From an uncultured Prevotellaceae bacterium (lineage in GTDB: Bacteria > Bacteroidota > Bacteroidia > Bacteroidales > Bacteroidaceae), in NCBI GenBank assembly GCA_902775075.1, contig CACYKX010000050.1, positions 1 through 25,144 of the forward strand: DNA of 25,144 bases, read 5' to 3'. This document shows, one piece after another, positions 5,708-23,156 of this stretch. The notes below the pieces were generated by a model. That model did not search any database. It saw only the letters and a program-made list of their open reading frames with translations, and had not been told where the DNA came from. Both the position numbers and the translations under genes were made by a program. Numbering within the stretch: position 1 is the stretch's first letter; the number at the start of each line of letters is the position of its first letter.

Positions 5708-5809
5708 AGCGGGGGGCTGAAGAAATAGCGCGATAGAATCGCTGTGCAAGAGACGAAAGAGAGCCGCGATGGTATTACGGTAAACGGGACAAATGATATA
5801 ATATTAGTT

Positions 5810-6934
5810 ATGGTATTTAAGAGAATATTACATCCTGTAGGTCAAGGGGCATTCTTTACTGAGCAGTTCCTTGATGAGAGTGGTAAAGTGGTATACAACG
5901 TGGTGTATGACTGCGGGAGCTTTACCAGTCAGCCAATGCTATTGGAGTATGAAATAAGGAATACCTTTGAGAAGAATGCCCATATAGACTTGCTCTTTAT
6001 CTCGCACTTTGACGAGGACCATGTGAACGGACTAATGACACTACAGAGTCAAACAAAGATAGACAAAGATACGAAGGTAATAATACCATTTAAATACCCT
6101 TATCTACTGATGGTAATGGATGATGATTATCCTACATTGGCAAGGTTCGTGATGCGAATGTTCAATATCGGGGCTCAGGTAATAGGTGTTGATGAAGGCA
6201 TCAATGAAAACAGACCAGGGGAACCGATAGATATAGACAGACTTGACGGAAACATAACTCTTGGTGGGAAGAATGTTATAAGGCTGGATAAGGTGTTATG
6301 GTACTACTATCCGTTTATGCTGCCTGACCAGAGTTCACTACAAAAGGTGTTCGAGGGGAAGGTAAAAGGTATAGTAAATCTAGACAATCCAAATGAGATA
6401 CTGACGAAACGGAAAGAACTCAGGGATATATACAAGACTATCGGCAAGACAAAAGGTGGCGTTACGAGGATTAACGTGAATGCGCTGTTTATGTTGTCGT
6501 TTCCTGCTGTAAATGTTGTTTGTAATACTAACATCTGGCATCAGATAAACTTTATAGGGGGTGCTGAACCTACTTGCTTTTATACTGGAGACTCGAACCT
6601 GAAGGGTAATGGGTACGACGAGGTGAAGCAACGTGTGACGGATATTCTTGATTCGTATTCGAAGGGAACCAAGGTTAGCATGATGCAGGTGCCTCACCAT
6701 GGTAGTGACAAGTGCTTTCCTGAAAAGATGGCCGACAGGACGGATGGATTTTTTGAGTGTGGGTTTGTGAACTGTAATCCGTGGCATAGGCAGAAGGTGT
6801 TTGATAGCGGTATCATCGGAGAGTTTACTCGCAATAACAAGATGCTTTTACTGGTTACAGAATGTTACCATTCGAGGGTTGAGGTGATTGCTGAACTATT
6901 CAAGATAAAGAGAGACAATGATGTCGATGGATGA
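5810..6934 (+). CDS. ComEC-like metallo-beta-lactamase-fold hydrolase
   Basis: A soluble 374-aa protein of the MBL fold, resembling the C-terminal domain of ComEC/Rec2 without the membrane part. The N-terminus has HPVGQGAFF (the VGQG-type strand), then VYDCGS, the metal motif HFDEDH (residues about 66-71), CFYTGDSN with an aspartate ligand, and QVPHHGSD, where ComEC-type proteins have a further histidine pair. It therefore probably hydrolyses a phosphodiester; nucleic acid or a nucleotide is the likely substrate. Stand-alone proteins of this kind occur in bacterial conflict loci, but the function is not fixed. The frame stays open upstream to GTG 5744; ATG 5810 is chosen because the conserved fold begins right there. 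It overlaps the next gene by 17 nt, suggesting a two-gene unit. Confidence 0.78.
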   Translation: MVFKRILHPVGQGAFFTEQFLDESGKVVYNVVYDCGSFTSQPMLLEYEIRNTFEKNAHIDLLFISHFDEDHVNGLMTLQSQTKIDKDTKVIIPFKYPYLLMVMDDDYPTLARFVMRMFNIGAQVIGVDEGINENRPGEPIDIDRLDGNITLGGKNVIRLDKVLWYYYPFMLPDQSSLQKVFEGKVKGIVNLDNPNEILTKRKELRDIYKTIGKTKGGVTRINVNALFMLSFPAVNVVCNTNIWHQINFIGGAEPTCFYTGDSNLKGNGYDEVKQRVTDILDSYSKGTKVSMMQVPHHGSDKCFPEKMADRTDGFFECGFVNCNPWHRQKVFDSGIIGEFTRNNKMLLLVTECYHSRVEVIAELFKIKRDNDVDG

Positions 6935-7885: not shown

Positions 7886-8341
7886 ATGAGTTATCCGAAA
7901 CTTGATAGAAAAACTAAAAACTATTGTGGGGTCATCTGTAATGAAGTGTTAGCCAAAAGAAAGGGAAATAAGAAACTCACGAAGTGGGACTACCCCGCAA
8001 TGGCGGTGTCTTGTTCGGAAGATCCAAATAAAAGTGGCGTTTCTGACTATTCACGAGGTGTCGTTGACAGAAGCTATAGTTCACCATACGCCCATGAGTT
8101 AAAAGATGCTCTCATGGTAGTTCTTCGTAGAGAAGGAAGACCAGAGCAATTAGGGTCGAGGACAAATTGCGGTAATAGAATTGGGCGGTGTGCAGAGCAA
8201 CATGCAGCCAATAAGCTGATGACAACAAGAAAAAAAACAATACCTCTCGGAGATATTTGTTTTAGCAAGGCACTTAGACCAAGAACTCTTGAAATAAGGG
8301 ACTACTGTAACAATTGCAAAAATGTATTTCCATCTCTATAA
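7886..8341 (+). CDS. CDA-fold nucleic acid or nucleotide deaminase
   Basis: A 151-aa protein with the two zinc motifs of the cytidine-deaminase superfamily: C102-A103-E104 in GRCAEQHAANKLM (zinc ligand plus catalytic glutamate) and C141-x2-C144 in DYCNNCKN. The CAE form, instead of HAE, and the compact size recall deaminases found as toxins or in bacterial conflict systems rather than housekeeping cytidine deaminase. It is the first gene of a tightly overlapping five-gene operon with a PLD nuclease, an EVE-like domain and a HEPN protein. I infer base deamination of foreign nucleic acid or of the nucleotide pool as the role; the substrate cannot be read from the sequence. No signal or secretion domain is present, so an exported toxin is less likely. 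The start follows an AT-rich promoter-like spacer. Confidence 0.75.
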   Translation: MSYPKLDRKTKNYCGVICNEVLAKRKGNKKLTKWDYPAMAVSCSEDPNKSGVSDYSRGVVDRSYSSPYAHELKDALMVVLRREGRPEQLGSRTNCGNRIGRCAEQHAANKLMTTRKKTIPLGDICFSKALRPRTLEIRDYCNNCKNVFPSL

Positions 8342-8948
8342 TAAGATGTATCCAGAAAGCGAGTGGTCAACACGTGATATAGATTGGTTCGTAAAAATCG
8401 GTGATATTTATATCCATGGTGCGTCAAATGGTGGCGTACTGCCTTCTATGATTACTAAAGGGCAGAATCGTCAAATTCAACAGGCTGTGGCCAAGATGGA
8501 TTATCTGTATGCGGATAGTGAGAATGATATCTTTGTCAATAGTGATTATGTAAATCAGAGGTTGAAAGGGCAAAAGCGACTACTTGAAACCGATGGAGAT
8601 AATTTCTCGCCATATAACGCTTATATTGCCTCATTTAAAGATATGGCAAGAAAAGGATTCTATTCGTTCGACAGAGAAATTGCTCCTACTATTGAAGAAG
8701 ACACACGAAGACAATTTCAACTACGATATGTTTTGATAGCCTGCCCGAGACAATTACGAGCTAATAAACTCCCCAATATAGAAAACGTACCAGAAATTGA
8801 GTACAATGCTAAGTTATTTGAAGATTGTCTTGTTAACAGAAAGGAACTAAGTATTTCATTGAATGCTGTCAATAAAATGTGGCGACTAACATGTATTGAA
8901 AGACGATTACTGCGCAAAAAAGGTAATGATAATCCATCGTTCTTATGA
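8322..8948 (+). CDS. hypothetical protein, 208 aa, deaminase-coupled
   Basis: No family recognised. ATG 8322 overlaps the deaminase gene by 20 nt; ATG 8346, just past that stop, is the alternative start. The N-terminal part carries a distinctive stretch, WFVKIGDIYIHGASNGGVLP, followed by helices with many charged residues; a strand-like YVLIACPRQL lies near residue 140, and the C-terminus is basic (ERRLLRKKG). It ends with an ATGA overlap onto the PLD gene. Obligate overlap on both sides suggests a complex or regulatory partner of the deaminase (immunity, activator or specificity subunit), an inference from layout only. Confidence 0.7.
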   Translation: MYFHLYNKMYPESEWSTRDIDWFVKIGDIYIHGASNGGVLPSMITKGQNRQIQQAVAKMDYLYADSENDIFVNSDYVNQRLKGQKRLLETDGDNFSPYNAYIASFKDMARKGFYSFDREIAPTIEEDTRRQFQLRYVLIACPRQLRANKLPNIENVPEIEYNAKLFEDCLVNRKELSISLNAVNKMWRLTCIERRLLRKKGNDNPSFL

Positions 8949-9364
8949 GAGTTGTAAATAATTGCAGAGGGAACCATATAGAAGAGGTCAAGGATTTGCT
9001 GGCCAATAGCAGCAAAGCATTAATAGCGAGTCCTTTTATCTCGCTGACTGTTATCGATAAGATGAAGAATTGGCTTACATTCGGATTCCATGAGTTAACC
9101 TTGATAACGACGCTGAAGGAGAAGGATCCTGACCAGTTAAGAAAGGTTCCCGTGTTGATGGAACTGTTCCGACTGAAAAAAACACGAGGATTCCATCTGA
9201 CAGTAAAAATTGATAATCAGCTTCATGGGAAGGTATATATCGGTATGAGGGATGAAAACTTTACAGGTGCGATTGTTACATCAGCCAACTTTACTGATAA
9301 CGGGCTTGAAAACAATCATGAATGGGGAATTTTCTTTAATGATCAAAAGGAAATATCGAAATGA
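8945..9364 (+). CDS. phospholipase D-like (PLD) nuclease domain protein
   Basis: A 139-aa protein with a single PLD half-site: H94-G-K96-V-Y in NQLHGKVYIG, followed by TSANFTDNGLENNHEWG, the S-A-N-x-T and E-x-x-x-E-W-G pattern typical of PLD nucleases. One HxK motif means the enzyme would act as a dimer, as Nuc and BfiI-type nucleases do. The N-terminal half (ALIASPFIS... LTLITTL) matches the first strands of the fold. The TGA stop overlaps the ATG of an EVE-like protein, and the frame ends soon after the fold should close. This looks like one PLD-EVE protein divided into two subunits. Likely role: DNA or RNA cleavage guided by the neighbouring domain. Confidence 0.8.
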   Translation: MRVVNNCRGNHIEEVKDLLANSSKALIASPFISLTVIDKMKNWLTFGFHELTLITTLKEKDPDQLRKVPVLMELFRLKKTRGFHLTVKIDNQLHGKVYIGMRDENFTGAIVTSANFTDNGLENNHEWGIFFNDQKEISK

Positions 9365-9942
9365 AGATGAAACAATGGATTGATGACAATCCGAAGGAAG
9401 ATGTTAAATCTCCATCTATTGATGTTAGTTTCATTGATATGATAGAAAAGCCCATTGTTAATAAAGCCAGTTTGACCTATTGGCTGAAGCCTTTGGGAAA
9501 AAGTCCTGATCCTGTACCTTCAACAAGATTGTTTGGAGATGAAATGCATCAAATAACTTTCACTACCAAGAATCCTCGAGGTATTGTAGAAGGTGATATT
9601 TTACTGGCATATTCGGTAGTTACGCAACAGATTATATCTGTGTTTGAAGCAACTGATGAAAGAGGTGTGTTGACCGAGTTTGCTAATCTTGGTGATGAGC
9701 GATGGCCCAACTATATTTGGTGCAAGAATCTGTCTCCAGAATATGGAGCCAGCTGGCCTGTAAAGGGATTGACTTTCAGAAAATTACGAGAAGATTTCTT
9801 GAAACGATACCCAACCATGACTATTTTACCATCTGGCAATAAACTGAATGGAATGCAATGGGGGGCTGATCATATTAAGTGTACACCAGAATTTGCTGAA
9901 TATGTGCTTACGAGAATTAAGGAGGAACCTAAGAATGAATGA
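9361..9942 (+). CDS. EVE/PUA-like modified-base reader domain protein
   Basis: A 193-aa protein. After a charged linker (residues 1-35) comes a PUA-like pattern: TYWLKPLGK, RGIVEGDILLAYSV, IISVFEATDE, RWPNYIWCKNLSPEYG and a closing LTFRKLREDF. The early Y-W, the GD-ILLAY strand and the late W-P resemble EVE domains, which bind modified bases and are often joined to nucleases in type IV-like restriction. It begins with an ATGA overlap on the PLD gene and ends with another onto the HEPN gene. The natural reading is the specificity subunit of the PLD nuclease. The family call is by pattern and should be checked by profile search; ASCH is the nearest alternative. Confidence 0.6.
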   Translation: MKMKQWIDDNPKEDVKSPSIDVSFIDMIEKPIVNKASLTYWLKPLGKSPDPVPSTRLFGDEMHQITFTTKNPRGIVEGDILLAYSVVTQQIISVFEATDERGVLTEFANLGDERWPNYIWCKNLSPEYGASWPVKGLTFRKLREDFLKRYPTMTILPSGNKLNGMQWGADHIKCTPEFAEYVLTRIKEEPKNE

Positions 9943-11384
9943 TATACCTAAAAAAAATAGTTAAACCAACATTTGATTCCATTCATCAGTTATGGGATTG
10001 CCGCATGTGGGGCGTGAAAGGTATTGATAATGTTGGTAATGATAATAGGTTTCACTTGGAATGTGACAAATTGCTTTTTTCATACAAAAGTACCTATTCA
10101 AATTCCATAGTGGAGTCGTCATCAAGTGATATTATCTTAAATGACGGATATAGGGAATTTATAATACCCCAATGGCATTATGCATACACGGGTAGGACTG
10201 TAGCTGATGGTAAAACGGAACAGGAACTGAACCTCCAGGTGTCTCACTTAGAACAGTTATCCATGTCTGATAAAACATTACCGCACTATTGGCGTTATGT
10301 TTATGCTGTTAGCGATAGTGAGTGGTTCCTAAAAATCAGCGCAATACCATATCAAACCGAGAGCGGATGTCATTATATGCATGGACTTATTCCATTAAGT
10401 GTTGATAGTCAGGATTTGTGTATTTTCTATGACAGAGGGGAGAAATCCATGATTATAGAAAGTTCGTCACCATTGACTGAAGTGGAAATGGATAGACTCG
10501 TTTTGGCAGTTATTGTTGCTCTAGGTCTTGTTATTGGAAAATATTATGGAGGTTGTAGGTTTAAGGTTGCCAGTGATGATAAGCAATTTCATCAGATATT
10601 AGGTATTATTGTGGATAATCTTAGACCATCAAAATGGTGCCCTTATAAGATTTTTGATACAGAGAGAACACAGATAATATCTATGTTAGGTATGCATGAC
10701 TATCAGGAATATGCTAAAGATGAAGTAACAGCAACTGATAAAGATGGCATATTTTGGTATTATGATGGCAATCCCGTCGGCTTAGATGCATTTCAAAAAC
10801 TTTCAGAACTATTGTTCAAAGACGATGATATGTATGTTGGTGCTTCTATGTTGCTTGATGGTAGCATGTTGGATGCGGTCTATCAAGTTCCTTTCTATTG
10901 CGTCTCAATAGAAACAATAACGTCTTCTCTGATGAAGGGAGTTACAAAAACACCACCCCCAATGAGCTGGGATGATTATAATGAAAAGGTGTTGCCAGCC
11001 CTTAAGAAAGTTGTTGATGAGATGGATATTATTCCCAATGCTGCTAAGGAAATATATAAAAATAAGCTCGCGAACATGAATTATCCGCCTAATGCCGATA
11101 AACTTACGTTAAGCTTTGAGATATTGGGGTATGTATTGACTGATGCAGATAAAGATGCTATTAATAAAAGAAATAAGTCATTTCATGGTAAATTAGTGAG
11201 TGGAAGTAAGCCTCTTATAGATCAAAGTGAGGACATGCTGGCTTTAGGTATGAGATTGCATAAACTTTGTTGTATCTTACTGTTATTAGCATCTGGCTTT
11301 CATGGCAAAATACTTAATAATGAAGTGATTTTCGGTATCCAAGAAGCATGTGCCAGAAAGGAACATGCTTATGTGGAAATATGA
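9939..11384 (+). CDS. HEPN-domain protein with large N-terminal region
   Basis: A 481-aa protein whose C-terminus has the Rx4H motif of HEPN ribonucleases, R411-N-K-S-F-H416 in NKRNKSFHGK, set between helices as expected (helix with LSFEILGYVLTDADKDAI before, LHKLCCILLLLASGF after). The first 300 residues are mixed beta and helical and resemble the N-terminal sensor regions of ApeA-like abortive-infection proteins only in general layout. The likely activity is RNA cleavage on phage sensing. It starts with an ATGA overlap on the EVE-like gene and is the last gene of the overlapping five-gene operon. The coding sequence is visibly more AT-rich than the nucleotide-sugar block. HEPN call fairly confident; exact family not recognised. 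Confidence 0.65.
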   Translation: MIYLKKIVKPTFDSIHQLWDCRMWGVKGIDNVGNDNRFHLECDKLLFSYKSTYSNSIVESSSSDIILNDGYREFIIPQWHYAYTGRTVADGKTEQELNLQVSHLEQLSMSDKTLPHYWRYVYAVSDSEWFLKISAIPYQTESGCHYMHGLIPLSVDSQDLCIFYDRGEKSMIIESSSPLTEVEMDRLVLAVIVALGLVIGKYYGGCRFKVASDDKQFHQILGIIVDNLRPSKWCPYKIFDTERTQIISMLGMHDYQEYAKDEVTATDKDGIFWYYDGNPVGLDAFQKLSELLFKDDDMYVGASMLLDGSMLDAVYQVPFYCVSIETITSSLMKGVTKTPPPMSWDDYNEKVLPALKKVVDEMDIIPNAAKEIYKNKLANMNYPPNADKLTLSFEILGYVLTDADKDAINKRNKSFHGKLVSGSKPLIDQSEDMLALGMRLHKLCCILLLLASGFHGKILNNEVIFGIQEACARKEHAYVEI

Positions 11385-11489: not shown

Positions 11490-12542
11490 ATGATGATTCC
11501 ACAAGATGTCATAGATCGGCTTCAAGAGCTCAATATTGAGAAGGTGGCCACAAAACTGGGTATGGACGTTAAAAAACATAAGGCACTATGCTTTATGCAC
11601 AATGACCATACTCCCAGTTTAAGGTTTAGTGCGACAAAGAATATGTTTTTCTGCTTTGTCTGTGACAAAGGTGGCGGCCCCATTCAATTGGTGATGGAGT
11701 ACGAGGGGTGGTCTTTTCAAGATGCTTGTTTATGGCTTGCTAAGGAGTTCAATGTCATCATTCCTGATAATAATAGGTATGTCAAACCCGTAAAAAATAC
11801 AATCAAAAAAGTGCATTTGTCAAAAAAAGATGAATCCGAATATTATGTTGATGAGGAGATTATTACGTGGTTGATTGAGAAAGCTGGTCTGTCGGAAACC
11901 GCCCATAAGTTCTTGTTTGAAGAACGTCATTTCAAGAAAGAGGTTATCATAAACCTCGACATTAAGTCGGTAACTGACTCCAAGAAGGCAAAAGATTTAC
12001 TTATATCTAAATTTGGAGAGGAAAGATGTGTGAAATCAGGGATTATCAGACGTGGTGAATATGGTACTTACTTCTATTTCTACACACCTTGCCTGCTTTT
12101 CCCATATTATGAACAGGATGGAAGATTAGCAGGAATTCAATCAAGGTATTTAGGGGATAAGAAGGATGTACCAAGATTTCAGTTTCTGGCTGCACAGAAG
12201 GCCAGAGTGTTTAACCTACCTATTCTTAATACGCTGCAAAGGGGTGATAAGCTCTATATAAGTGAAGGTATAACCGATTGTTTGGCTATGTTGTCTTCTG
12301 GACTAAAGGCTGTGGCAATACCCAGTGCTACCATTCAACCTTTAGAAGACTTGGTACTGCTGAAGAATTATGATTTGCACATGTATCCTGATCAGGATGA
12401 GACAGGTCAGAGGGCATATATGGAATTGAGACGTTTCTTTGTGAATAACTATTCAACAGTAAAAACGGAGAAACTGCCAAAAGGAATAAAGGATTATTGC
12501 GAATATTATATGTTAACACAAGAAGCTGATGGCAAAAGATGA
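11490..12542 (+). CDS. DnaG-like primase, CHC2 zinc finger plus TOPRIM, short form
   Basis: A 350-aa protein. The N-terminal zinc ribbon uses C34-x2-H37 and C55-x2-C58 with the CHC2 pattern (CFMHNDHTPSLRF... FFCFVCDKGGG). The TOPRIM domain has E259-G-I-T-D263 in YISEGITDCLAM and the D301-x-D303 pair in YPDQDETG. These are the core of bacterial primases, which make RNA primers; the helicase-binding C-terminal domain of full DnaG (about 600 aa) is absent. The gene overlaps the next by 14 nt, and that one overlaps an RT-HD gene, so it is the first member of a three-gene unit. A TOPRIM primase translated together with a reverse transcriptase is unusual. A plain plasmid or phage primase is the alternative, but the operon argues against a bystander. 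Start is ATG 11490 or 11493, after 105 nt of AT-rich spacer. Confidence 0.85.
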   Translation: MMIPQDVIDRLQELNIEKVATKLGMDVKKHKALCFMHNDHTPSLRFSATKNMFFCFVCDKGGGPIQLVMEYEGWSFQDACLWLAKEFNVIIPDNNRYVKPVKNTIKKVHLSKKDESEYYVDEEIITWLIEKAGLSETAHKFLFEERHFKKEVIINLDIKSVTDSKKAKDLLISKFGEERCVKSGIIRRGEYGTYFYFYTPCLLFPYYEQDGRLAGIQSRYLGDKKDVPRFQFLAAQKARVFNLPILNTLQRGDKLYISEGITDCLAMLSSGLKAVAIPSATIQPLEDLVLLKNYDLHMYPDQDETGQRAYMELRRFFVNNYSTVKTEKLPKGIKDYCEYYMLTQEADGKR

Positions 12543-13191
12543 TAAGAATCCTGCGGTAACTGCAAAAGAGGAATATACTTTTCAGTTGCTGCTGAATGAC
12601 ATCCAGGAGAGCGCACTCGAAAACGAGGAAGACGGGCAGTCTGGTGACAAAGCTGCCCGTGAGCGGCAATCTAAATTGATTGTCATGCAAATGCTCATTG
12701 ATAAGTCCAACGAGTATAACGACTATAGTCACCGTGATGACGAGAAGTTGAGGAATGCCATTGATGTCATGGTAAACAATGACGTTCATTTGGCGGGATT
12801 TATCTTCTTTGTCTCACAGAATCCGCAGTTTGATTATTCTTGGAATTATCTGAGAAAACGTGAAAACAGCTATAAGGAGTTTCTTGTAGAGGGCATTCGT
12901 TTCCTAGCTAGTGTGCTTGCAGATGCCAATATGCTTGCTGGAAAGCCTCGAACACAAAAAGATGTTCATGTGGTAATGAATGACATCATTGATATCTCTT
13001 TGACAAGGGAAAAACCTTTCGTTAAAGCTAGTGTTTTATGGGAGAACTTCCATCGGCTGGCTATGCTGAAAAGAAACTATCATCTGACGGTGAAATGCAA
13101 GGAGTGCATTCTGGTAACAGGCATAAGAAAAGTAGCTGCTGATGCTGAGAAACTTATAGATTCGGCCTTGAACATGCTTGGGAACAAATGA
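12529..13191 (+). CDS. hypothetical protein, 220 aa, between primase and RT-HD
   Basis: No family recognised. The gene starts inside the end of the primase gene and its stop overlaps the start of the RT-HD gene (ATGA), so all three are probably made in fixed ratio. The N-terminus is a charged, likely disordered or coiled segment (about residues 1-55); the rest is helical, with blocks such as DVHLAGFIFFVSQNPQF and IRFLASVLADANMLAG. The C-terminal third has a CKEC pair and the helical VAADAEKLIDSALNML. It could be a structural subunit bridging primase and polymerase, inference from location only. Confidence 0.72.
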   Translation: MAKDDKNPAVTAKEEYTFQLLLNDIQESALENEEDGQSGDKAARERQSKLIVMQMLIDKSNEYNDYSHRDDEKLRNAIDVMVNNDVHLAGFIFFVSQNPQFDYSWNYLRKRENSYKEFLVEGIRFLASVLADANMLAGKPRTQKDVHVVMNDIIDISLTREKPFVKASVLWENFHRLAMLKRNYHLTVKCKECILVTGIRKVAADAEKLIDSALNMLGNK

Positions 13192-16100
13192 AACGATTCA
13201 GAATGATGGAGCAAATGAAGCTTTTAGACAAAATACTTGACGAACGGAATATTTTCAATTCGATATTCTGTTTGGAGTCGTATGTGTTTGATAGAGGACT
13301 ATTGGATACGGACAATCCTGTTATATCTTGTACAGAGGATGGCGAAATAGTTGGAACCATCGCAGGAAATGACCTCGAACTATTCTACGCCCTTGCAGAC
13401 AAGTATAATGTTGAACTGATAGAGAAAGTGATAGCCTTATGTCAAGTGAAACTGAAAAGGGTGTTATCGGATAAAGACAGTCTTTTTAGTGCGAAAGTTT
13501 ATTTCAAACTGAAGAACTATGATGCGGATACCCAAACGCTGAACTTCAGGCCAATGCACACGGCCAGGCTGATTGACCAGATTTGTATGGTGAGTATCCT
13601 TAATTGCCTGATGTTTGACGATGACCTTGGCAAGGGAGAACGAAAACTTTCGGACCTTTCCAAGTTACTTCCACATAACTTCTACGGAAATATACCATGC
13701 ACAGATGTTCAGTACCTGTTCCACAGGTGGCAGACGAAGTACAAGGAATACACGAATGAGGTTATAGAGCACTGCAGAGCGTATCAGCAAAATCATAGCT
13801 ATTTGACTGAGGTGAGCCTGGACATCAAGAATTTCTTTCCTTCTATTTCGCCAAAGATGCTATATGACTATATCGTTAGCAAACTGTCGAAAACCTATGA
13901 GAATGATAAGGACATGTTGGGTATGGCTGTCGCAAAACTCCTATATTTCAGGATAGACAAAAAGAATGTGGAGCCTTGGAAGGATTACTATTATCCAGTA
14001 GGCACTGATTTGACAGGAGTAGAGGAATATATGAATTGTGGCATTCCACAGGGTTTGCCGCAGTCATATTTTTTCGGCAATCTATGTATGATTGAGGTGA
14101 AACGGTTGCTAATGAAAGACGAATGCTTCAAAGGTGATGCATATTTCTATGTGGATGATTCGGTCATCTATATACAGGCAAAGCTGGATGATGAAACCTT
14201 CAAAGAAAAGATAAGCAATCTGAACACAAGTCTTGAAGAATGGTGTAAAGAGAAAGAAGATTCGCCAAGTGACTTGGAGAAGCATATTGGGACGGAGTGT
14301 TTAACTTTCCAGAAGAAACTAAGCTATAACATCCATTTCCATGAAGATGGAAAAAGTGTGTTTACGCATATTGATGACACAGATAACCAGTATGGGCCAA
14401 TAGTGAACATTACGCGCGAGACCTATATGAACTCAAATTTGGCCTACAATCTGGATGAAGTGGATGATCATGTGTCTCTTCAGAAGCTGGAAGCTCTCGA
14501 TAAAGTTATATCGAAGGAGATAAAGGAACTGACGAAGAAGCAGAAGGAAGGCGAAGAAAATGGGAAGAAGGGTAATGCGGTCGATTCCAGACTGAAGTTG
14601 CTCAGACGTTTCAAGAAGTTCTTCCTATACAGGAACCGACTCCTAAAAATCAGAGAGGCCGGAGGTCCCAATGATGATATTCAGGATGAGTTCAGAACAC
14701 GCTTTTTGGCAAAGTCGAATGATGCGGCATCGTTCTTTGAACAATTTGATGAAGATATTTTCTTGTCAGAGTACCGTCTGCTGATACAGAAATTGCCTAA
14801 AAAAGGTGCAGAGAACTTCGGACAGGAGATTGCGGACTTTGAAACCGGACTAATGCTGTCCTGCCAAGAGCAATTAGAAGGACGGCAGCAATATCTGTTC
14901 TATGCCAAAGATGCTCGAACCGCCTGTATGATGAAATCGTTGACACAAGACAGCTATGCTTCACTGGTAAAATGGGCAAAAGAGAACTTCAGTGGTTTGA
15001 AAAGCATGGATCCTGGCAAGCAGATGTCCAAGTTCAGGGAATTCCTCCTGCCTGCGGAGGCAGAGGGCAATGATATAAACCTGCAACGAATCTTTGGAAT
15101 GCAAGTAGATGGGTTTGAGGGAAAGAAATTCACTCGCTTTGTGATGAAGGCTTCGGCAGAGTACCAGCGGAGGATATTGAATGTTTATTTTTCAGAGATT
15201 ATGGATGTTGCACCGTCGGATGCTCTTGCCTTTACGAAGATGAATGCCAGAAGACTACGATATTCGGAGTTGCGGATACTGGCATATTTGAGAAACCAGA
15301 AATTCGATTTGGAGGTTTTTGAAGAGTTCATAGAGCACATCAAGGAGAAGGATGTCTCGAATCAGATGGGAATAGACATGGGTATTTTGGAGGTGCTGAA
15401 CATCTTTATCAGGAATGTAAGCAAGCCAGAATGGGTAGATACACTGATAAAGACCCACAGGCTGACAAAAGGGCTTTGGTATAACGGCTCCAAGTTCCTA
15501 AATTCCTATACGCTGCATAATGAAGAACACGCAGTCACTCTTATTACTAAATCGCTGGAGTTGACGAATAGGATTGATTACTTCGTGTTGAAAGATATCG
15601 ATTTCTATATTCTGTTCTTGGCCTGTTATCTGCATGATATTAGCATGGTAATTCATCCTGACTTGGGCAGGTTGAGTTCTGAGAACGGAAAGAATCTGGT
15701 GCTGATTTCTGAGTTGATGAATCAGATGGAGGATGCAGTAAGCGAGTTTGGTAAAATCGATCTTAAGGATAAGAAGAATTCCAGATATAAGAATGCAGGA
15801 CGATTCTTGGTAGAAGTGTTCAATCAGGTGTATGGCTACTTTGAAACATTGGTAAGAGACAATCACGCCAAAGATAGTGCAAAGTTTATACGAGATCGTT
15901 CTAATTCGCTTCTAAACTACTTAGAACCGACATTGCTGTCGTTTGTTGCCAAGGTTTCAGAAAGTCATGGCTATGATGCGATGGATGTATATGGTCTGAA
16001 GTCAAGGGCCAAGGATGACACCATCAGTATAAAGTACCTGATGATTCTTATTAGGATGGCAGACTTGCTGGATGTAGCCAATGACCGGGTAAACTATCAC

Positions 16101-16592
16101 TTGCTGCGGCAAAATTTGAAGAACCTGTCTCAAACATCCAAGTTCCATTGGATTTCCCATTTGGTAACGGACAAGATAGAACTTGATACAGATTACGTCA
16201 CTGATGAAAAAGTGGCGATGGGCGACAAACCGATCACTGAAATCATCAATTTGAAACTCTACTTGAATTTCAAACAACTGACCGTGGCAAGAAAGACGAT
16301 GAAGTGCCAGGGATGTCAGATGGAAAAGGGCGAGAATAGCCTTGTCATCAGAATACATGGTGGTGATAACCGCACAATGGTGTGTGATGAAAATCAGTGT
16401 ATGGTGTTATGCTGCTGGATGATGCGTAAGCATGATTGGTTGGTAAAGGAGTTGGGCGCACTGAAGGAATATCTCTTCTCTGTGAACAACTCCCTGTTCA
16501 AAACTGAAATCAATTTCGTCATTAACTATCGTGATGACATGAAACTTGATGCTGATATGTTTGACAGCGTACAGGACTATTTGGATGCGTAA
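13188..16592 (+). CDS. reverse transcriptase fused to a C-terminal HD domain, 1134 aa
   Basis: The N-terminal half is a reverse transcriptase: motif A with D212 in VSLDIKNFFPSI, motif B GIPQGLPQS (residues 285-293), and motif C Y321-V-D323-D324. The preceding FRPMHTARLIDQI fits RT motif 2. A charged helical linker (about 430-480) leads to a long uncharacterised middle part. The C-terminal third is an HD-type metal-dependent phosphohydrolase: H777-N-E-E-H781, then H816-D817 in CYLHDIS, a further SESHG, and RMADLLD (D959, D962). A cysteine-rich stretch follows (about 1040-1080, CQGCQ... CDENQC), possibly a zinc knuckle. No maturase or HNH domain is seen, so it is not an ordinary group II intron protein; it resembles the Abi/unknown-group RTs of phage defence. 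I infer cDNA or template-free DNA synthesis with the primase, and an HD effector that may cleave nucleotides. It starts by an ATGA overlap on the 220-aa gene. Confidence 0.88.
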   Translation: MKRFRMMEQMKLLDKILDERNIFNSIFCLESYVFDRGLLDTDNPVISCTEDGEIVGTIAGNDLELFYALADKYNVELIEKVIALCQVKLKRVLSDKDSLFSAKVYFKLKNYDADTQTLNFRPMHTARLIDQICMVSILNCLMFDDDLGKGERKLSDLSKLLPHNFYGNIPCTDVQYLFHRWQTKYKEYTNEVIEHCRAYQQNHSYLTEVSLDIKNFFPSISPKMLYDYIVSKLSKTYENDKDMLGMAVAKLLYFRIDKKNVEPWKDYYYPVGTDLTGVEEYMNCGIPQGLPQSYFFGNLCMIEVKRLLMKDECFKGDAYFYVDDSVIYIQAKLDDETFKEKISNLNTSLEEWCKEKEDSPSDLEKHIGTECLTFQKKLSYNIHFHEDGKSVFTHIDDTDNQYGPIVNITRETYMNSNLAYNLDEVDDHVSLQKLEALDKVISKEIKELTKKQKEGEENGKKGNAVDSRLKLLRRFKKFFLYRNRLLKIREAGGPNDDIQDEFRTRFLAKSNDAASFFEQFDEDIFLSEYRLLIQKLPKKGAENFGQEIADFETGLMLSCQEQLEGRQQYLFYAKDARTACMMKSLTQDSYASLVKWAKENFSGLKSMDPGKQMSKFREFLLPAEAEGNDINLQRIFGMQVDGFEGKKFTRFVMKASAEYQRRILNVYFSEIMDVAPSDALAFTKMNARRLRYSELRILAYLRNQKFDLEVFEEFIEHIKEKDVSNQMGIDMGILEVLNIFIRNVSKPEWVDTLIKTHRLTKGLWYNGSKFLNSYTLHNEEHAVTLITKSLELTNRIDYFVLKDIDFYILFLACYLHDISMVIHPDLGRLSSENGKNLVLISELMNQMEDAVSEFGKIDLKDKKNSRYKNAGRFLVEVFNQVYGYFETLVRDNHAKDSAKFIRDRSNSLLNYLEPTLLSFVAKVSESHGYDAMDVYGLKSRAKDDTISIKYLMILIRMADLLDVANDRVNYHLLRQNLKNLSQTSKFHWISHLVTDKIELDTDYVTDEKVAMGDKPITEIINLKLYLNFKQLTVARKTMKCQGCQMEKGENSLVIRIHGGDNRTMVCDENQCMVLCCWMMRKHDWLVKELGALKEYLFSVNNSLFKTEINFVINYRDDMKLDADMFDSVQDYLDA

Positions 16593-16645: not shown

Positions 16646-16810
16646 CAACCGTGAATGCATTGTGTATTCTTTGTTCTTTGGCTATCTGGCTTCGTTGCAT
16701 TGCCAGCGGTATATGATGACCCTGTGATAACTGTACTTTCGTTAGCAAGTGCAGTAATGAGAGTGATAGGAAATATTTACAAACTTTTTACAATCATAGG
16801 AGGAAGGCAA

Positions 16811-16987
16811 ATGAGAAATCTAAGCAATATAATCAAAAAGAAGTTGACAGCAGGAGTAGAGATGCTCCTGGTAGTGGGGAATATGGGGGAGGCTATTGTG
16901 TACCCACTGCCAAGTAACGAGGTGTTAGTATATTCCCCCGCCAAATATTCTTCAACTTTATATAATTACCCTTCTCACATTTGGTGA
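16811..16987 (+). CDS. possible 58-aa small protein or leader ORF
   Basis: ATG 16811 follows AGGAGGAAGG at good distance, one of the best ribosome sites in the window. The peptide has a basic amphipathic start (MRNLSNIIKKKLTAG) and a later part, EAIVYPLPSNEVLVYSPAKY. The same frame is open up to ATG 16655, which would give 110 aa, but that ATG sits almost on the predicted transcription start. The stop lies within a strong hairpin, so translation could control its folding. No family recognised. Confidence 0.4.
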   Translation: MRNLSNIIKKKLTAGVEMLLVVGNMGEAIVYPLPSNEVLVYSPAKYSSTLYNYPSHIW

Positions 16988-16994
16988 GGAGGGT
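16968..16994 (+). terminator. strong hairpin, possible attenuator or terminator
   Basis: ACCCTTCTCAC (16968-16978), a 5-nt loop ATTTG, and GTGAGGAGGGT (16984-16994) pair over 11 positions with one G-U. The following bases (TCTATTGTATATA) are AU-rich but contain no clean T run. It overlaps the stop codon of the 58-aa ORF, which suits an attenuator coupled to translation. Confidence 0.5.
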
Positions 16995-17072: not shown

Positions 17073-17303
17073 ATGACGCAAGATGAGAAATGGATAGTGA
17101 GGTATCTGGATGTGATGGGGTTTCTGGATGAGAATCACAGAAATCCGTCTAAGCACCGAATCGAGGAGCATGATATGCTTAATTGGCTGAAGGCTAACCG
17201 TAAAGCCTTAAATGCAGGGAAGATGAAACTGGAGAGGGTAGAGAAGTTTCGAAAACTTCTGGAAATGACGGAACTTTATAAACGTAAGAATCAGTATCAA
17301 TAA
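17073..17303 (+). CDS. small helicase-associated-domain-like protein, 76 aa
   Basis: A small, basic, helical protein of the pattern W-x(4)-Y-x(3)-GFLDENHRNPSKH... LNWLKANRKALNAGKM... RVEKFRKLLEM, which resembles a single helicase-associated (HA) repeat: an aromatic start, a conserved N-P-S turn, a W-L-K/R-N-R-K helix and a final helix. HA repeats probably bind nucleic acid. Stand-alone copies, as I recall, occur in Bacteroidales accessory regions. It ends three bases before the ATG of the giant STAND gene, so it should be translated together with it. Possible roles are a DNA-binding regulator or a cofactor of the STAND protein; both are inference. Confidence 0.65.
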   Translation: MTQDEKWIVRYLDVMGFLDENHRNPSKHRIEEHDMLNWLKANRKALNAGKMKLERVEKFRKLLEMTELYKRKNQYQ

Positions 17304-17306
17304 ATC

Positions 17307-20300
17307 ATGTCAAATTCCAACAACGTAAAATACACGCAAAGAGGTGAACGCGCTGCGATGGGGGGCTACCTGCCGCAGTACGATGCGTTTGCCATTGGTG
17401 TATATGATGCCATGCAAGCCGGAGTTCTAGAAGAAATCCGTGTGGCAGACATGGAGGACAATGTTGGGAAATTGGATGATATAGTATATGCCACACAAGA
17501 TGGCGTACATGCATATCAACTGAAATACAGCAAGACGGAAGCACAAATGGCTTATCCTGCCTTCAGAGATTTGATAGGCGACATAGTAGAAGGATGGCGC
17601 AAGCTAAAGAAAACATATGTTGACAAAACGGTATATCCCTACCTGATGACGAACAAGAGTCTGACAGAGGGTGATAATACCATTAAAGCACTTGTGGATA
17701 AAGACGCAGGAGGCTTCAAAGCATACGAACATGAAGTGCTGGAGAAACTGAAATCAGGTGAACCTATTGATGCAAAATGGGATAAGGCGGTAAAGGAACT
17801 GCAAACCAGATCAACCCTAACGCAAGAGGAATGGGGCGAATTCTGGAAGGTGTTCACATTTTTGCATGACTATGCCCAGGAGACAATTGAGATAGCAAGG
17901 GCTAACGAAGACCAGCGCACCTACGACATCATTTGTATCAACAGGATGATACAGGAGATGGCTGCAGGAAAGGGTTATCAGATAAAGTTGACGGTCAGGG
18001 AGATTATTACCCGCTTGAATTGGGAAAAACGCTTTGAAACGAAGTTTGACCACAATCTGAATGTTCCAGAAGATTCATACGTGCCAAATGCACAGGGTTT
18101 GTCCTTGTTGGATGCTGCAATTCAAGGAAAAACCAGAGGTTATGTATTCTTGAAAGGGTCTCCGGGTGCCGGTAAGTCAACTTTACTGACACAGTGGACA
18201 AGGAACATCAAGAACCCCTCGGTGAGGTTTTATGCCTTTGACTTCTTGAATCCTTCGTCGCAAAGGAATAATGACAGCAGTCGTGGCAGTGGGCTGATAT
18301 TCCTGCATGACATCATACTCCAGATACGCGAAACGGGAGTGGAGGGTAATAGAACGATATTGCCCAATATGGACGCTGAAGCCCTGAGGAATAGATTCTA
18401 TGCACAGTTAGATGCTATTTCCGAGCAGTTCAAAAAGACAGGAATTCCATTTGTAATCATTGTTGATGGGCTTGACCATATTACAAGAGAATACACAGCG
18501 TGTCTGCAAACGCTGATGAAGGTGCTGCCTTCACCGACGGACATTCCTGAAGGTGTTGTCTTTGTGCTGGGTAGTCAGCACTATGACCATTTAGGGCTCA
18601 ACCCTGCTATAGAGAAAGAAATTCTGGTGGCAGGAAACTTAGTGGAGATGCCATCCTTAAGTCGGGATGAATCTGCTAATTTGTGCAAAAAACTCTTGCC
18701 TCCAGCACTGATAACAGAAGAAGTACAGGAGAAATGTTGGAAGAAATCGCTTGGACATCCGCTGTATTTACGTTACCTCCTGAATCATATTGTGACGGCA
18801 GGTGTAGCGGTGATTGAAACATTGGATGATTCTCCTGAAGGTGTTGAGGACTACTATGCACGAATTGTCGGGACACGCCTCGAAGATGTTGATGTGAGGG
18901 ATGCGCTGGGCCTTGTGGCAAGAATAAGCGGGAACATATTGCTGGATGACGTTCGGGATTTGTGTAAAAAGAATGCCTTGCTGGTCATAAAAAACCAGAT
19001 GTGGCATCTGTTCAAATATGATGAGGGAGGGCAGTCGTTGGCGTTCTTCCACAATTCATTCCGCCAATATCTGTTGAACAAGACAGCTGAAGAGATTCTC
19101 ACAGGGAAATATTCGAAGACAGAGGAGATAGACTATTATAAACGCTTAGCTGAACACTTCAAGGATGGCTGGGAGAAAGGGTATTACCTTTATTATGCAG
19201 AAGAGTATGACCAGTTCTTGACGCAGATGAGTCCTGAAAGGTTGTACAAACAGACCCAGAACTACCGACCGCTATGGAGTGTGACAAGGGATTTGAGAAG
19301 GGGTGTCGAAATAGCCAGAAGGAAGAAAGACCCGTACATGCTTGTCCGTTATCTGTTCTTGGAGAATCAAATCTCTCAGATGGATAATCAAGACTATTCT
19401 GTGTTATCATTGACGGAAGACTTCATCCATACTGGGCGCAGTACACTGGCTAAGGCTATTGTAAGAGAGGGGCGGCATTTATACTGCTCACAGGAATATG
19501 CCATGACATTGGCCGTGGAGTATTTCAACACGGGCGACAAAGACGAAGCAAATCTGTTGTTTGCTCTTTCCTATCCCGAATTCCTTTCACATAAGCCTGA
19601 AGACCGTCGTAATACATACCGTGAACTCAAAGATAAAAAGGAATATCTGGCAGATTGGGTTCGAACGGCAGGCTATTTCCTTGAATGGGCTGACATAGAA
19701 AGGCAGATTGCCATATTCATCCCTTATCTGACGGAGCTTGCTGCACACGATAATGAGAGTTTTGATGTTGATGAATTTAGGCATAGGCTGATACTGTCGT
19801 ATTTAGAGTCTCTGACAGCGCAGAATCGCTGGGATGAATTTGAGGCAATGATATTGTCGCTTGGAAAAAACAATGCTTCCTTGTATGTTGCATTCAGTGC
19901 TTATGACAATGCCATAATTCATCTGAGTCAGCAAAAGGGTGACAAGTCGCAGTTGACCCGCTATTTCTCAGAGGAAGAAAAGGTTTATGCTGCCCTGCCT
20001 CAGGATAGTATCCACAATATGGTGATGGCCAATCTGACGGAACGGAGTAATCAAGTGGCTGAGACAGTAATGGGTTATCTCAACAAGGTTAGATGGGAAG
20101 ATATTGGCTCCTATTACATGGACGTTAGCCAGAAGTTTGAAACCATCAAGCCGCATATCTTCTATGTGAAGACCAGAGCCAAGTATGGGGTCTTAGACAA
20201 AATGACTTCTTTGGTGCCGGACAACCCGGATCATGAGGACAACGATCTGATGGTGAATTATGCAAGACGTGTGTTCAGCATAGCCCAGATGGCTGGGAAG

Positions 20301-23156
20301 GCATTGGTGGGGGTGACGGATGCCGGTTTCTTGAAACTGGTTTCGTTGAGCCTCGGTTATTTTGACACATTAGAACCTCCGCTCGCTCAGCATAACAGAT
20401 ATTCTTATCCCATCTCTCAGCAGAGGAAGGATTTCTATGAATTTGTTGTCGAAATGGCCGCAGACTTTGGAGGGGAAATGATAGACAAGGTGGCGCAGGC
20501 ATTTGAACACTATTTTTCAGAATCTTCGTGTCGTGCGGACGGAGCATCGCAGCGAATGGCCATTATGGCATTATTCAGGGAAGGCTACGACCCAGAATGG
20601 TGCAAGTGCCAGTTAGAAAGAGTGGATGGGCTGATTATGACGTGGAAAGACCTTGATGGGCGTGTGAGCGAATCGCTGAAGCAAGGCAAAGCATGGTTGG
20701 AGATGGGCTATTATAACAAAGCAGAGGCTTATTTCCACCAAATGATAGAAGAGACATTCGGGGTGGGCTACCGAAAGGATTCACAGCCTACTCTGTTTGC
20801 AGAATGGCTGGGGGAAGCAATACAACGGGAGCCGGAACACGCCACAGAACATGTACATTGGCTGACTTCGAGGTTGCGATACATTGACGAAATAGCAGAG
20901 ACAAGAACAGCATATAGGGCAGCAAACAGGTTGTTGCACGAAACCTTGAAATATAATCTCCGTTCGGGACTTAAACTCGCCTTCTGGTTGCTTGATGAAG
21001 AATTTGAATATTATCAGTCTGTGTCGTCTGCGCTGCTGCACATATTATTGGCGAAATCGGAAAAAGCAGAAGAGTATCTTTCGCTGTTCAGACTGTTTAC
21101 CGACCTGCATCTATATAACGATGAGAACGATGTGTACGATTTAAGTACCTCATTGTTGCAGGCCATCATCACCCACGGCAAGCGCATACTGGGTGGAGAC
21201 TTCAATAGAGTAATTCCCCAATTGCAGCAAAAGATAAAGACCGAGTGCCCGGAGAATATCGTGGAAGGGCTGTTAAAGAGTCTGGATGAAGTGCTGCTGC
21301 CCAAAGAATCGACTCTAAGTGATGACTCTGACAGAGAAAGAGACCAGAAACTGGCAGAAGCTAAAGCATTGCTGGAGAAGGGTCAAATCAGTGCAGCATG
21401 GAATGCGGCTATGGAAGCCTTATCGGATTCGACACAATCGGGCTGGTCAAGGTTTTATGATGGTGGATCACGGATTAACATTTGCAAAGTGCTGCAAGAG
21501 ATAGACCTCCAAAAGGGGCGTGATTTCACTTTGGATTTGTTTGCAAGTGACATTCCTGGTGGTTATGCATACGGGACTTTGCCATATTTGGACGAGATAG
21601 TACCCTTGTTGACCGAACAGGTTGATTACAAGCGACTCTTTGATGAAGAGTTTGCATACATGAACAGGATACTGCGGGAGGATACTGTAAACAATGGTGA
21701 CAAACCAGACATTACACCAGATAACAGCACTGTATGCGAGATAATACGGGATTGGCTGCTGTTTCTTGCTAAAATGCCAGTCATCAGTGTGTCTGAACGG
21801 GCAAAGATTCAATTGGCTAGGCTTTATGATGAAACAGACACAGCATTGGCACTTTCTTTTGGCGATGTGGATAATGAATTACTTGGGTTAGAGATTGGGG
21901 GCTATCTTGCTGAAATTTGGTCTGCTCGTTTGCCGGAATTCGTTGAACAGGCGCGTAAAAGTGCTGTCTCGCCAAATTATCAATACAGGCTTTACGCTGC
22001 GAAAATCCTGAACGCGCTTGGTGAACCCATTCCAGAAGCGCCGCATAAAACGCTGCCAGCTACATATGGTCTCAGTTTTTCTCCGGCAGAAGCAAAACCA
22101 TTGAGTTGGTTGCCGGGTGAAGACCATTCTTTGGACATTGACTGGAAGAATGCCAGCAGTGTGATGGGTGTTGCCTCGCACTGGAGCGGCTACCTGGCAT
22201 ACTGTGCTGATATAGAACAGCGTACTCTGGATTACAGGGCTGTGGAGTTGATGAAAAAATACGGTATGGCAGGTGATGGAAATGTTGCTGAAGATAAACG
22301 CATTATGCATCACTACGACCAAATAGGTTTGAGATGCCCTTACAGAAAAGCACATGCTATAGCCGCGTTGAACGGTATGCTGGAGGTCGCCTCGGAACTG
22401 AAGGACGGTGGTGCGGTGAAAGTTCGTTACCATGACAGTGTGTTTGTTTCACGGGATTTCTCAAACATACGCATCATTGCGCAAAGTAAGCCCGACTTTG
22501 TCCATAGGCTAGCTCCGGCAGGAGAATGGGGCGTGAATAAAGATTGGATGGACAACGCTGACAAATGCATCAGGTTTAACGAACCATTGCCAGAGTATGA
22601 CGATGGCATCGTGATAGGAGAGTATACCCATTTGAAGAAAGTTGGTGATAATCCCGCTTTTGAAGAATATGAGGCAAAAATAAGTTTTTTCCCAGATAAG
22701 ACATATAGTGAAGGTAGTTCTATCTTCGGAGACAGCCCGTTTATGCAGCCTACTTCAAATTATCTCGAATTGGGTGAGCAAGACTCGGAGGCTATTTTAC
22801 TGAGGGGTGGTTACTATACTGACTTCTCAAACAAGAGCCATTGGATTGCCTTTAATCCCGCTCTTGCTTACACCATAGGATGGATACCATCAGAAGATGG
22901 CTGCTTTGCTTGGAATGATGAAAAGGGAGTGAGAATGGTGGAGTCTATATATTGGCAAAGCGGAAATACCAATATGAATACCAGAGACCATTATGAAACC
23001 GGAGAGGGATGGTTTATTGTGGTCAGCAAGGAAGCGATGTATGCTATTATGGAAATAGCAACGGTATATGTCCATAAGAAGGTTACGCGTCGGCGGGGTT
23101 CCAATCTTGCTGATACGACTCATCAAGCGTACAGCGTAGAAACGATGGAGGGGTAA
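17307..23156 (+). CDS. Avs-like STAND ATPase with N-terminal Cap4-like nuclease, 1949 aa
   Basis: The N-terminal domain (about residues 1-230) has a PD-(D/E)xK-type pattern, GKLDDIVY (about 52-59) and AYQLKY (about 69-74), close to the DUF4297/Cap4 nuclease of anti-phage proteins. Next comes an NTPase: Walker A KGSPGAGKST (about 283-292), Walker B FVIIVDGLDHI (about 380-390), and a GHPLYLRYL sensor as in STAND NTPases. The middle (about 650-1550) is helical repeat, TPR-like. The last 400 residues are beta-rich with many aromatics and not recognised. Avs proteins work this way: the repeats bind a phage protein, the NTPase oligomerises and the nuclease cuts DNA. The size fits Avs (about 1500-2000 aa). 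It follows the HA-like gene by 3 nt and precedes an ApeA-like gene by 6 nt. No break in the frame. Confidence 0.82.
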   Translation: MSNSNNVKYTQRGERAAMGGYLPQYDAFAIGVYDAMQAGVLEEIRVADMEDNVGKLDDIVYATQDGVHAYQLKYSKTEAQMAYPAFRDLIGDIVEGWRKLKKTYVDKTVYPYLMTNKSLTEGDNTIKALVDKDAGGFKAYEHEVLEKLKSGEPIDAKWDKAVKELQTRSTLTQEEWGEFWKVFTFLHDYAQETIEIARANEDQRTYDIICINRMIQEMAAGKGYQIKLTVREIITRLNWEKRFETKFDHNLNVPEDSYVPNAQGLSLLDAAIQGKTRGYVFLKGSPGAGKSTLLTQWTRNIKNPSVRFYAFDFLNPSSQRNNDSSRGSGLIFLHDIILQIRETGVEGNRTILPNMDAEALRNRFYAQLDAISEQFKKTGIPFVIIVDGLDHITREYTACLQTLMKVLPSPTDIPEGVVFVLGSQHYDHLGLNPAIEKEILVAGNLVEMPSLSRDESANLCKKLLPPALITEEVQEKCWKKSLGHPLYLRYLLNHIVTAGVAVIETLDDSPEGVEDYYARIVGTRLEDVDVRDALGLVARISGNILLDDVRDLCKKNALLVIKNQMWHLFKYDEGGQSLAFFHNSFRQYLLNKTAEEILTGKYSKTEEIDYYKRLAEHFKDGWEKGYYLYYAEEYDQFLTQMSPERLYKQTQNYRPLWSVTRDLRRGVEIARRKKDPYMLVRYLFLENQISQMDNQDYSVLSLTEDFIHTGRSTLAKAIVREGRHLYCSQEYAMTLAVEYFNTGDKDEANLLFALSYPEFLSHKPEDRRNTYRELKDKKEYLADWVRTAGYFLEWADIERQIAIFIPYLTELAAHDNESFDVDEFRHRLILSYLESLTAQNRWDEFEAMILSLGKNNASLYVAFSAYDNAIIHLSQQKGDKSQLTRYFSEEEKVYAALPQDSIHNMVMANLTERSNQVAETVMGYLNKVRWEDIGSYYMDVSQKFETIKPHIFYVKTRAKYGVLDKMTSLVPDNPDHEDNDLMVNYARRVFSIAQMAGKALVGVTDAGFLKLVSLSLGYFDTLEPPLAQHNRYSYPISQQRKDFYEFVVEMAADFGGEMIDKVAQAFEHYFSESSCRADGASQRMAIMALFREGYDPEWCKCQLERVDGLIMTWKDLDGRVSESLKQGKAWLEMGYYNKAEAYFHQMIEETFGVGYRKDSQPTLFAEWLGEAIQREPEHATEHVHWLTSRLRYIDEIAETRTAYRAANRLLHETLKYNLRSGLKLAFWLLDEEFEYYQSVSSALLHILLAKSEKAEEYLSLFRLFTDLHLYNDENDVYDLSTSLLQAIITHGKRILGGDFNRVIPQLQQKIKTECPENIVEGLLKSLDEVLLPKESTLSDDSDRERDQKLAEAKALLEKGQISAAWNAAMEALSDSTQSGWSRFYDGGSRINICKVLQEIDLQKGRDFTLDLFASDIPGGYAYGTLPYLDEIVPLLTEQVDYKRLFDEEFAYMNRILREDTVNNGDKPDITPDNSTVCEIIRDWLLFLAKMPVISVSERAKIQLARLYDETDTALALSFGDVDNELLGLEIGGYLAEIWSARLPEFVEQARKSAVSPNYQYRLYAAKILNALGEPIPEAPHKTLPATYGLSFSPAEAKPLSWLPGEDHSLDIDWKNASSVMGVASHWSGYLAYCADIEQRTLDYRAVELMKKYGMAGDGNVAEDKRIMHHYDQIGLRCPYRKAHAIAALNGMLEVASELKDGGAVKVRYHDSVFVSRDFSNIRIIAQSKPDFVHRLAPAGEWGVNKDWMDNADKCIRFNEPLPEYDDGIVIGEYTHLKKVGDNPAFEEYEAKISFFPDKTYSEGSSIFGDSPFMQPTSNYLELGEQDSEAILLRGGYYTDFSNKSHWIAFNPALAYTIGWIPSEDGCFAWNDEKGVRMVESIYWQSGNTNMNTRDHYETGEGWFIVVSKEAMYAIMEIATVYVHKKVTRRRGSNLADTTHQAYSVETMEG

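Follow-up and report, generated by a model that had tools for sequence, protein, structure and literature searches.

To our knowledge, class 3 is the least studied class of the UG/Abi reverse transcriptases (RTs). The portion of PMC13275509 available to us defines this class by an RT and a nitrilase or phosphohydrolase in one protein, and reports that purified DRT1 and DRT5 carry out template-free, protein-primed DNA synthesis, that the DRT1 nitrilase is controlled by DNA adducts and that the T4 single-stranded DNA (ssDNA) helicase Dda is necessary, but not sufficient, for the activation of DRT1. A precedent for an RT that works with a primase is DRT7, which is described in the accessible part of PMC13213688 as protein-primed and protein-templated. 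Here we describe a three-gene module in a stretch of 25,144 nucleotides, the window, from an uncultured Prevotellaceae bacterium (assembly GCA_902775075.1, contig CACYKX010000050.1). The module encodes a DnaG-type primase, a conserved 220-aa protein and an RT of the UG24 group that is fused to an HD-CE domain. The three genes form a coherent unit which is real and not a product of chance, and the module probably protects the bacterium against viruses. Its RT shares the plan of DRT1, with HD-CE as the fused domain, and no non-coding RNA (ncRNA) was found to flank it; we therefore rate as most likely, at a probability of roughly 0.45, that the UG24 module would work like class 3 systems such as DRT1, with DNA made by the RT gating the fused HD domain.

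The three genes are located on the + strand between positions 11490 and 16592, where gene 1 (11490..12542) overlaps gene 2 (12529..13191) by 14 nt and gene 2 overlaps gene 3 (13188..16592) by 4 nt. Gene 1 encodes the primase (350 aa), which has a zinc ribbon and a TOPRIM catalytic core and is without the helicase-binding C-terminal domain. Gene 2 encodes the 220-aa protein, whose family is without a name, and gene 3 encodes the UG24 RT with its phosphohydrolase-type HD-CE domain (1134 aa). The majority of the RT homologues start at the position of M10 (MKLLDK) and therefore the true start of gene 3 may be 13215 instead of the ATGA overlap at 13188. Pfam matches were observed for the CHC2 zinc ribbon of the primase (C34, H37, C55 and C58; 11511..11771, + strand; residues 8-94, E 1.2e-16) and for its TOPRIM part (E259, D301 and D303; 12255..12506, + strand; Toprim_2, residues 256-339, E 1.5e-6). 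In gene 3, RVT_1 (E 2.1e-7) marks the catalytic palm at 13719..14252 (+ strand; D212, QGLPQ within GIPQGLPQS at 285, and YVDD at 321), and HD-CE (E 1.4e-25) covers 15504..16190 (+ strand; H777, H781, H816-D817 and D959); both are also supported by invariance in homologues. This domain make-up, RVT_1 followed by HD-CE with the full HD motif, fits the class 3 UG/Abi RTs, with phosphohydrolase activity as a prediction from sequence. An earlier note on this DNA had read the three overlapping + strand genes as one operon, listed the CHC2, TOPRIM, RT and HD residues and named a DnaG-type primase, an RT and an HD domain with a complete motif. The coordinates and overlaps of the open reading frames (ORFs) bear out the first point, every residue was found at its position and the Pfam profile search agrees with the domain names.

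Defence calls were made with PADLOC-DB 2.0.0 (2023), in which gene 3 matches RT_UG24 at 1237.9 bits over profile positions 2-1035 of 1036 and the primase matches RTasDnaG-like at 354.2 bits, covering positions 40-377 of a 550-position model. Both models are filed under DRT, and relatives of the module at two distant loci, L017 and L018, are likewise assigned to UG24 and RTasDnaG-like. The earlier note, which placed the RT among the UG/Abi defence RTs, was thus probably right. It named no bacterial case of a DnaG-type primase with an RT-HD protein; the module is real, but the pairing of RT and primase already stands in the public catalogue of 2023 and is not new. The grouping of UG24 with RTasDnaG-like reportedly goes back to Mestre et al. 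2022. As for an exact match to a described DRT type with the same three genes, which the note had raised, the RT and the primase match a described group and the third gene does not: the RT spans the whole group model and the primase matches its model, whereas the middle gene has no model in PADLOC. UG24 in the RT sense is named in a table in the part of PMC8934634 at hand, and no functional study of UG24 was found in the literature searched.

The module can also be compared with other described systems. Like DRT1, it has an RT fused to a hydrolase domain, and no cis ncRNA was found for it, but in comparison with DRT1 and DRT5 it carries HD-CE instead of a nitrilase together with two extra genes, one of which is a primase. 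It shares an RT and a primase with DRT7 (UG10), whose primase is a PrimS primase-polymerase of another family; in the window the primase is of the DnaG/TOPRIM type and encoded by a separate gene, an HD domain is present, and a PrimS (AEP) domain was not found by Pfam in either the primase or the RT. DRT2, DRT3, DRT9 and DRT10 use a cis ncRNA, whereas no conserved ncRNA was seen beside the window RT.

The conservation of gene 3 was examined in 236 proteins, namely the best 120 of 881 and the best 120 of 624 matches, the window RT and the RTs of L017 and L018, a distant pair with RTs of 37% identity. The 228 proteins of at least 1030 aa were counted, near-copies included. Residues D212, Q288-Q292, Y321-D324, H777, H816, D817 and D959 were observed to be invariant in 228/228, and H781 is kept in 227, where the single exception, H781R in P0259, is the only changed residue of the HD motif. 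Among 73 RT representatives (<75% identity, median identity 43%), only 94 of the 1134 positions are invariant and these include the catalytic positions. Such conservation of both active sites across homologues is new here. The eight shorter RTs, considered as possible natural variants without HD, were left out of the count; seven of them end at differing points short of the usual C-terminus, whereas P0291 is without its front, so they look truncated. Synonymous sites of the RT were found to be saturated in comparison with L001, L002 and L009, with a proportion of non-synonymous differences (pN) of 0.11-0.12.

Additional residues outside the two motifs were also found to be conserved. C1040, C1071, C1075 and H1082, which form a C-terminal cluster (16305..16433, + strand), are present in 227, 226, 226 and 224 of the 228 homologues respectively, and could make up a possible metal site. 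Y590 is invariant and lies away from both catalytic motifs; as a guess, it could serve as a protein primer residue. When the structure model of the RT was compared with known structures, the ranking of Foldseek itself placed viral RNA polymerases first (HCV NS5B, best E 3.3e-4, 8% identity) and in a second structural ranking the top places went to G2L4 and group II intron RTs. Both groups of enzymes share the palm and fingers, and the result would support an RT-type polymerase fold only. In P0003, residues ~300-375 and 450-675 show low identity between close relatives and are flanked by the highly conserved RT and HD cores; these stretches are candidate sensing surfaces.

The invariance of the RT and HD active sites is compatible with HD as an effector or as an off-switch alike. 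As an off-switch, HD would clear the RT product or the deoxynucleoside triphosphates (dNTPs) between infections and the DNA itself would be the toxic agent, which we consider quite unlikely. Some HD enzymes hydrolyse dNTPs or nucleic acids, and an invariant HD active site is also compatible with an off-switch, but HD-CE is a portable module and the fused hydrolase of DRT1 kills rather than brakes (PMC13275509, in the portion seen). The portability is seen in a 1028-aa HD-CE protein (L041:3842-6928) of a Lachnospira eligens plasmid, in which no RT domain was found and which has an HSP90-like ATPase match just under the cut-off. For HD-CE itself, only unrelated papers were among the literature matches listed.

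The middle protein has no match in Pfam, PADLOC, NCBIfam or PHROGs, and a Pfam domain was found in none of the best 120 of its 209 homologues. Its AlphaFold model (mean predicted local distance difference test score, pLDDT, 82.0) suggests a helical N half and an alpha/beta C half, and the comparison of this model with known structures gave no confident fold match. The gene is nevertheless well kept, with a ratio of non-synonymous to synonymous substitution rates (dN/dS) of 0.08-0.11 against L001, L002 and L009. In single profile comparisons the middle proteins of L017 and L018 matched the window family at E 8.9e-7 (91% probability) and 2.3e-4 (45%) respectively, and they are 35% identical to each other over 185 columns. 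Of 66 candidate stretches for this family in viral contigs none was confirmed, even though diverged copies are present in L017 and L018. Co-location was examined with the best 120 of 881 RT rows and the best 120 of 209 middle-protein rows, where 15 of the best 43 RT rows and 17 of the best 120 were observed to share an equal-sized longest contig with a middle-protein row; after shifting, the mean was 0.36 and the maximum 2. As these counts come from the best-listed rows only, they are a floor value and support only the linkage of genes 2 and 3.

Twelve distinct RT loci were compared (the window, L001-L009, L017 and L018), of which L006 and L008 run off the ends of their contigs; L006 retains part of the middle gene. 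The named relatives are gut or rumen Bacteroidales metagenome-assembled genomes (MAGs), and the bacterium of the window probably belongs to the gut Bacteroidales. The earlier note had considered that RT homologues might consistently lack the primase and the 220-aa gene. We found that they do not: among the ten loci with upstream sequence the middle gene is present in 10/10 and the primase lies upstream of it in 9/10, so that the three-gene order is retained in nine. Based on first-start ORFs, genes 1 and 2 overlap in 7/9 loci and genes 2 and 3 in 8/10. The middle gene is therefore a constant component of the loci examined that is absent from the PADLOC catalogue, which is new here. Consequently, cloning UG24 with only the RT and the primase would probably omit a needed part.

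The unit also has sharp limits. No gene besides the three was common to all the loci compared, and when 300 bp per side were aligned, homology to the window was observed to end at most 4 bp from the RT stop codon, while the only match found upstream of the window primase start was 11 nt long and no better than chance. Longer upstream sharing was seen between L001 and L002 and between L003 and L004, mainly inside the neighbouring gene of L002, L003 and L004; the remaining upstream matches among loci are either shorter than 20 nt with E no better than 0.1, or extend just a few bases past the start codon. As an example of this tight fit, the neighbour genes in L002 lie 14 bp upstream and 3 bp downstream of the module. 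The unit thus begins and ends with coding sequence, a further new observation. An Rfam search of the window gave no match, which together with the lack of a conserved flank leaves no sign of a cis ncRNA template. Such a template is not supported for the flanks, and an RNA could be encoded elsewhere.

The operon was also found to recombine internally. Between L002 and L009, fourfold sites are near-identical in the late primase, the middle gene and the greater part of RT codons 1-300 (0-0.09, with a single block at 0.30), whereas they differ by 0.42-0.82 in the primase start and the rest of the RT-HD gene. This mosaic is the result of intragenic recombination with breakpoints in the primase and the RT.

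The mechanism that we infer from these comparisons, from its defence activity and priming mode to the gating of HD by DNA and the roles of the two smaller proteins, would be as follows. The RT would make DNA without a dedicated RNA template, and this DNA, probably attached to the protein or held by it, would control the HD phosphohydrolase domain of the same polypeptide. Upon phage infection HD would then hydrolyse nucleotides or nucleic acid and growth would stop. The DnaG-type primase may sense ssDNA of the phage or start strands on it, and the small middle protein may be an adaptor or regulator that ties the primase to the RT. Several points weigh against this DNA-gated mechanism. Purified DRT1 and DRT5 make DNA without a primase (PMC13275509, accessible part) and hence a conserved primase suggests another mode of strand start, while L005 has an RT and a middle gene with no primase in the locus. 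Drt1a is only tied with UG17 as the next-best PADLOC match of the window RT (both at 39.3 bits and confined to the RT part) and is not among the PADLOC matches of the distant RTs P0246 and P0248. The structure model of the RT is poor across the HD part (block pLDDT ~26-55), the role of HD as an effector is itself something we infer, and no phage assay of UG24 was found in the literature searched.

The part that the DNA-gating mechanism explains least is the primase, as its conservation argues for a role and its absence from L005 against an absolute one. A profile built from seven primases aligns with the DnaG structure 2au3 over positions 12-333 (E 1.6e-20), and DNAG_N was matched below the Pfam cut-off at residues 136-226. 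The TOPRIM triad is invariant in 7/7 aligned primases and the zinc-ribbon residues are kept in 6/7, the exception being L017, where the primase ORF (248 aa) starts after the ribbon; in DnaG the zinc ribbon serves template choice. The dN/dS of the primase was 0.13-0.16 against the same three loci as above. The protein thus has the zinc ribbon and the RNA polymerase core of bacterial DnaG with its TOPRIM residues, but it ends at residue 350, before the helicase-binding domain, and its 107 bits lie far under the cut-off of 283.6 of the dnaG equivalog TIGR01391. Without the helicase-binding domain it looks detached from the host primosome. The window primase was also observed to match positions 9-286 of the RT_UG29 profile (103.6 bits), a single profile of 2280 positions which has a DnaG-like start, while the window RT does not match RT_UG29 at E 0.1. 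RT_UG29 was matched in 390/395 Bacteroidota genomes, where the rows listed cover profile positions 1-490 in open frames of 613-912 aa; these are DnaG-sized proteins, with no recognisable UG29 among the matches listed.

These features bear on how strands are started. A DnaG-like primase could lay short RNA primers on exposed phage ssDNA for the RT to extend, with one polymerase working after the other, and the DNA would block phage replication or arm HD. The intact ribbon and core under purifying selection, the first position of the primase in 9/10 loci, its apparent release from the host primosome and the hint from the RT_UG29 profile of a fused DnaG-RT in another group are all consistent with this, but the L005 RT and middle gene occur without such a primase, save for a 667-aa DnaG-sized frame in the draft genome, the L017 ORF is without the ribbon, and protein priming is used by those class 1 and 3 RTs that have been studied (PMC13275509, in the part available). 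We therefore regard such priming as unlikely, if still the most credible of the alternatives. In a more complete form, which we also regard as unlikely and as somewhat speculative, the helicase-free primase would start RNA on phage ssDNA and pass it to the RT via the middle protein, and the DNA would activate HD. If true, a primase would initiate immune DNA synthesis, and the RT chain would carry its own effector; the systems described in the literature seen are instead protein-primed or ncRNA-templated.

L005, a Paludibacteraceae MAG, is located among primase-bearing loci in the RT tree and therefore the loss of its primase looks secondary, with the fork placing L005 open and recombination known to occur in the operon. 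The single primase match in its draft genome is in the 667-aa frame. Given the lack of a primase at the L005 locus and the missing ribbon of L017, some members do without a complete primase of their own, unless the housekeeping DnaG substitutes. Such losses would also be expected if the primase were a bait or sensor for the phage primosome or ssDNA with catalysis secondary, and the trigger of DRT1 includes a phage ssDNA helicase (PMC13275509, portion seen); however, the TOPRIM residues kept in 7/7 and the low dN/dS make this role very improbable. In the place of the primase, L005:5005-7872 holds two radical SAM enzymes, an 83-aa protein with a His/Ser-rich tail and small ORFs, and looks like a peptide-modification cluster. 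The module is complete and defined, and offers a system in which both the phosphohydrolase branch and the part played by a DnaG-type primase in immunity can be tested.

The least probable reading, to which we give very little weight, is that the module does not act in defence but belongs to a mobile element, as its replication or retro-element part. The contigs of L017 and L018 are called viral, the module of L018 is surrounded by a group II intron maturase and four genes for tyrosine recombinases, and phages commonly have relatives of the primase by itself (matches in 71 of 50,697 records, 49 of them over at least 80% of the primase length). Set against this, the window RT matches none of the phage records, its only matches in 72,556 plasmids are two in the HD part, the distant RT P0246 matches no plasmid, and the genes next to the module differ between loci while defence-type neighbours recur. 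The best phage match to the primase is MT838840.1 (L040:4425-5405, 34.3% identity, 97% covered), a phage-called faecal contig; its sequence ends ~60 bp past the primase and hence no partner gene can be judged there. UG24 is rare: a search of Bacteroidales found it in 2/393 genomes, the seed and apparently the genome of L001, and a search of Bacteroidota in 2/395, the seed and one HD-CE-only partial match.

The neighbour scan in the other loci covered chosen neighbours. YhcG-type nuclease genes were observed 13 bp (L003) and 108 bp (L004) upstream of the primase, as well as ~4.7 kb away in L005 and, as a partial gene, ~7 kb away in L018. A PDC-S01 gene is located 83 bp upstream of the module in L007 and 1.1 kb downstream in L017, and a HEPN-RES gene begins 3 bp after the RT in L002. 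No defence-type neighbour was seen among the neighbours scanned in L001 and L009. In the window, the + strand gene at 17307-23156 encodes a protein of 1949 aa, residues 267-594 of which form an Avs1b-like ATPase region; it is followed after 6 bp by the gene of an ApeA-HEPN protein of the PADLOC class PDC-S58 (23163-24509, + strand), and the two are possibly a second defence system. Upstream of the module, five tightly packed genes (7886-11384, + strand) include a PLD nuclease at 8945-9364 that matches the NgoFVII and DrmC models; no confident family was found for the other four, and the five genes may be a further defence cluster that is not yet catalogued.

Between the RT and the next gene lies a 110-aa ORF (16655-16987, + strand) with no confident family and no relative in the loci compared, and a terminator-like stem is located at 16968-16994. 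A 76-aa ORF at 17073-17303 (+ strand) is weakly similar, below the cut-off, to a helicase-associated domain and is perhaps a remnant. Further upstream, the + strand gene at 5744-6934 encodes a metallo-beta-lactamase-fold protein with partial matches to the LmuA and RTasMBL models.

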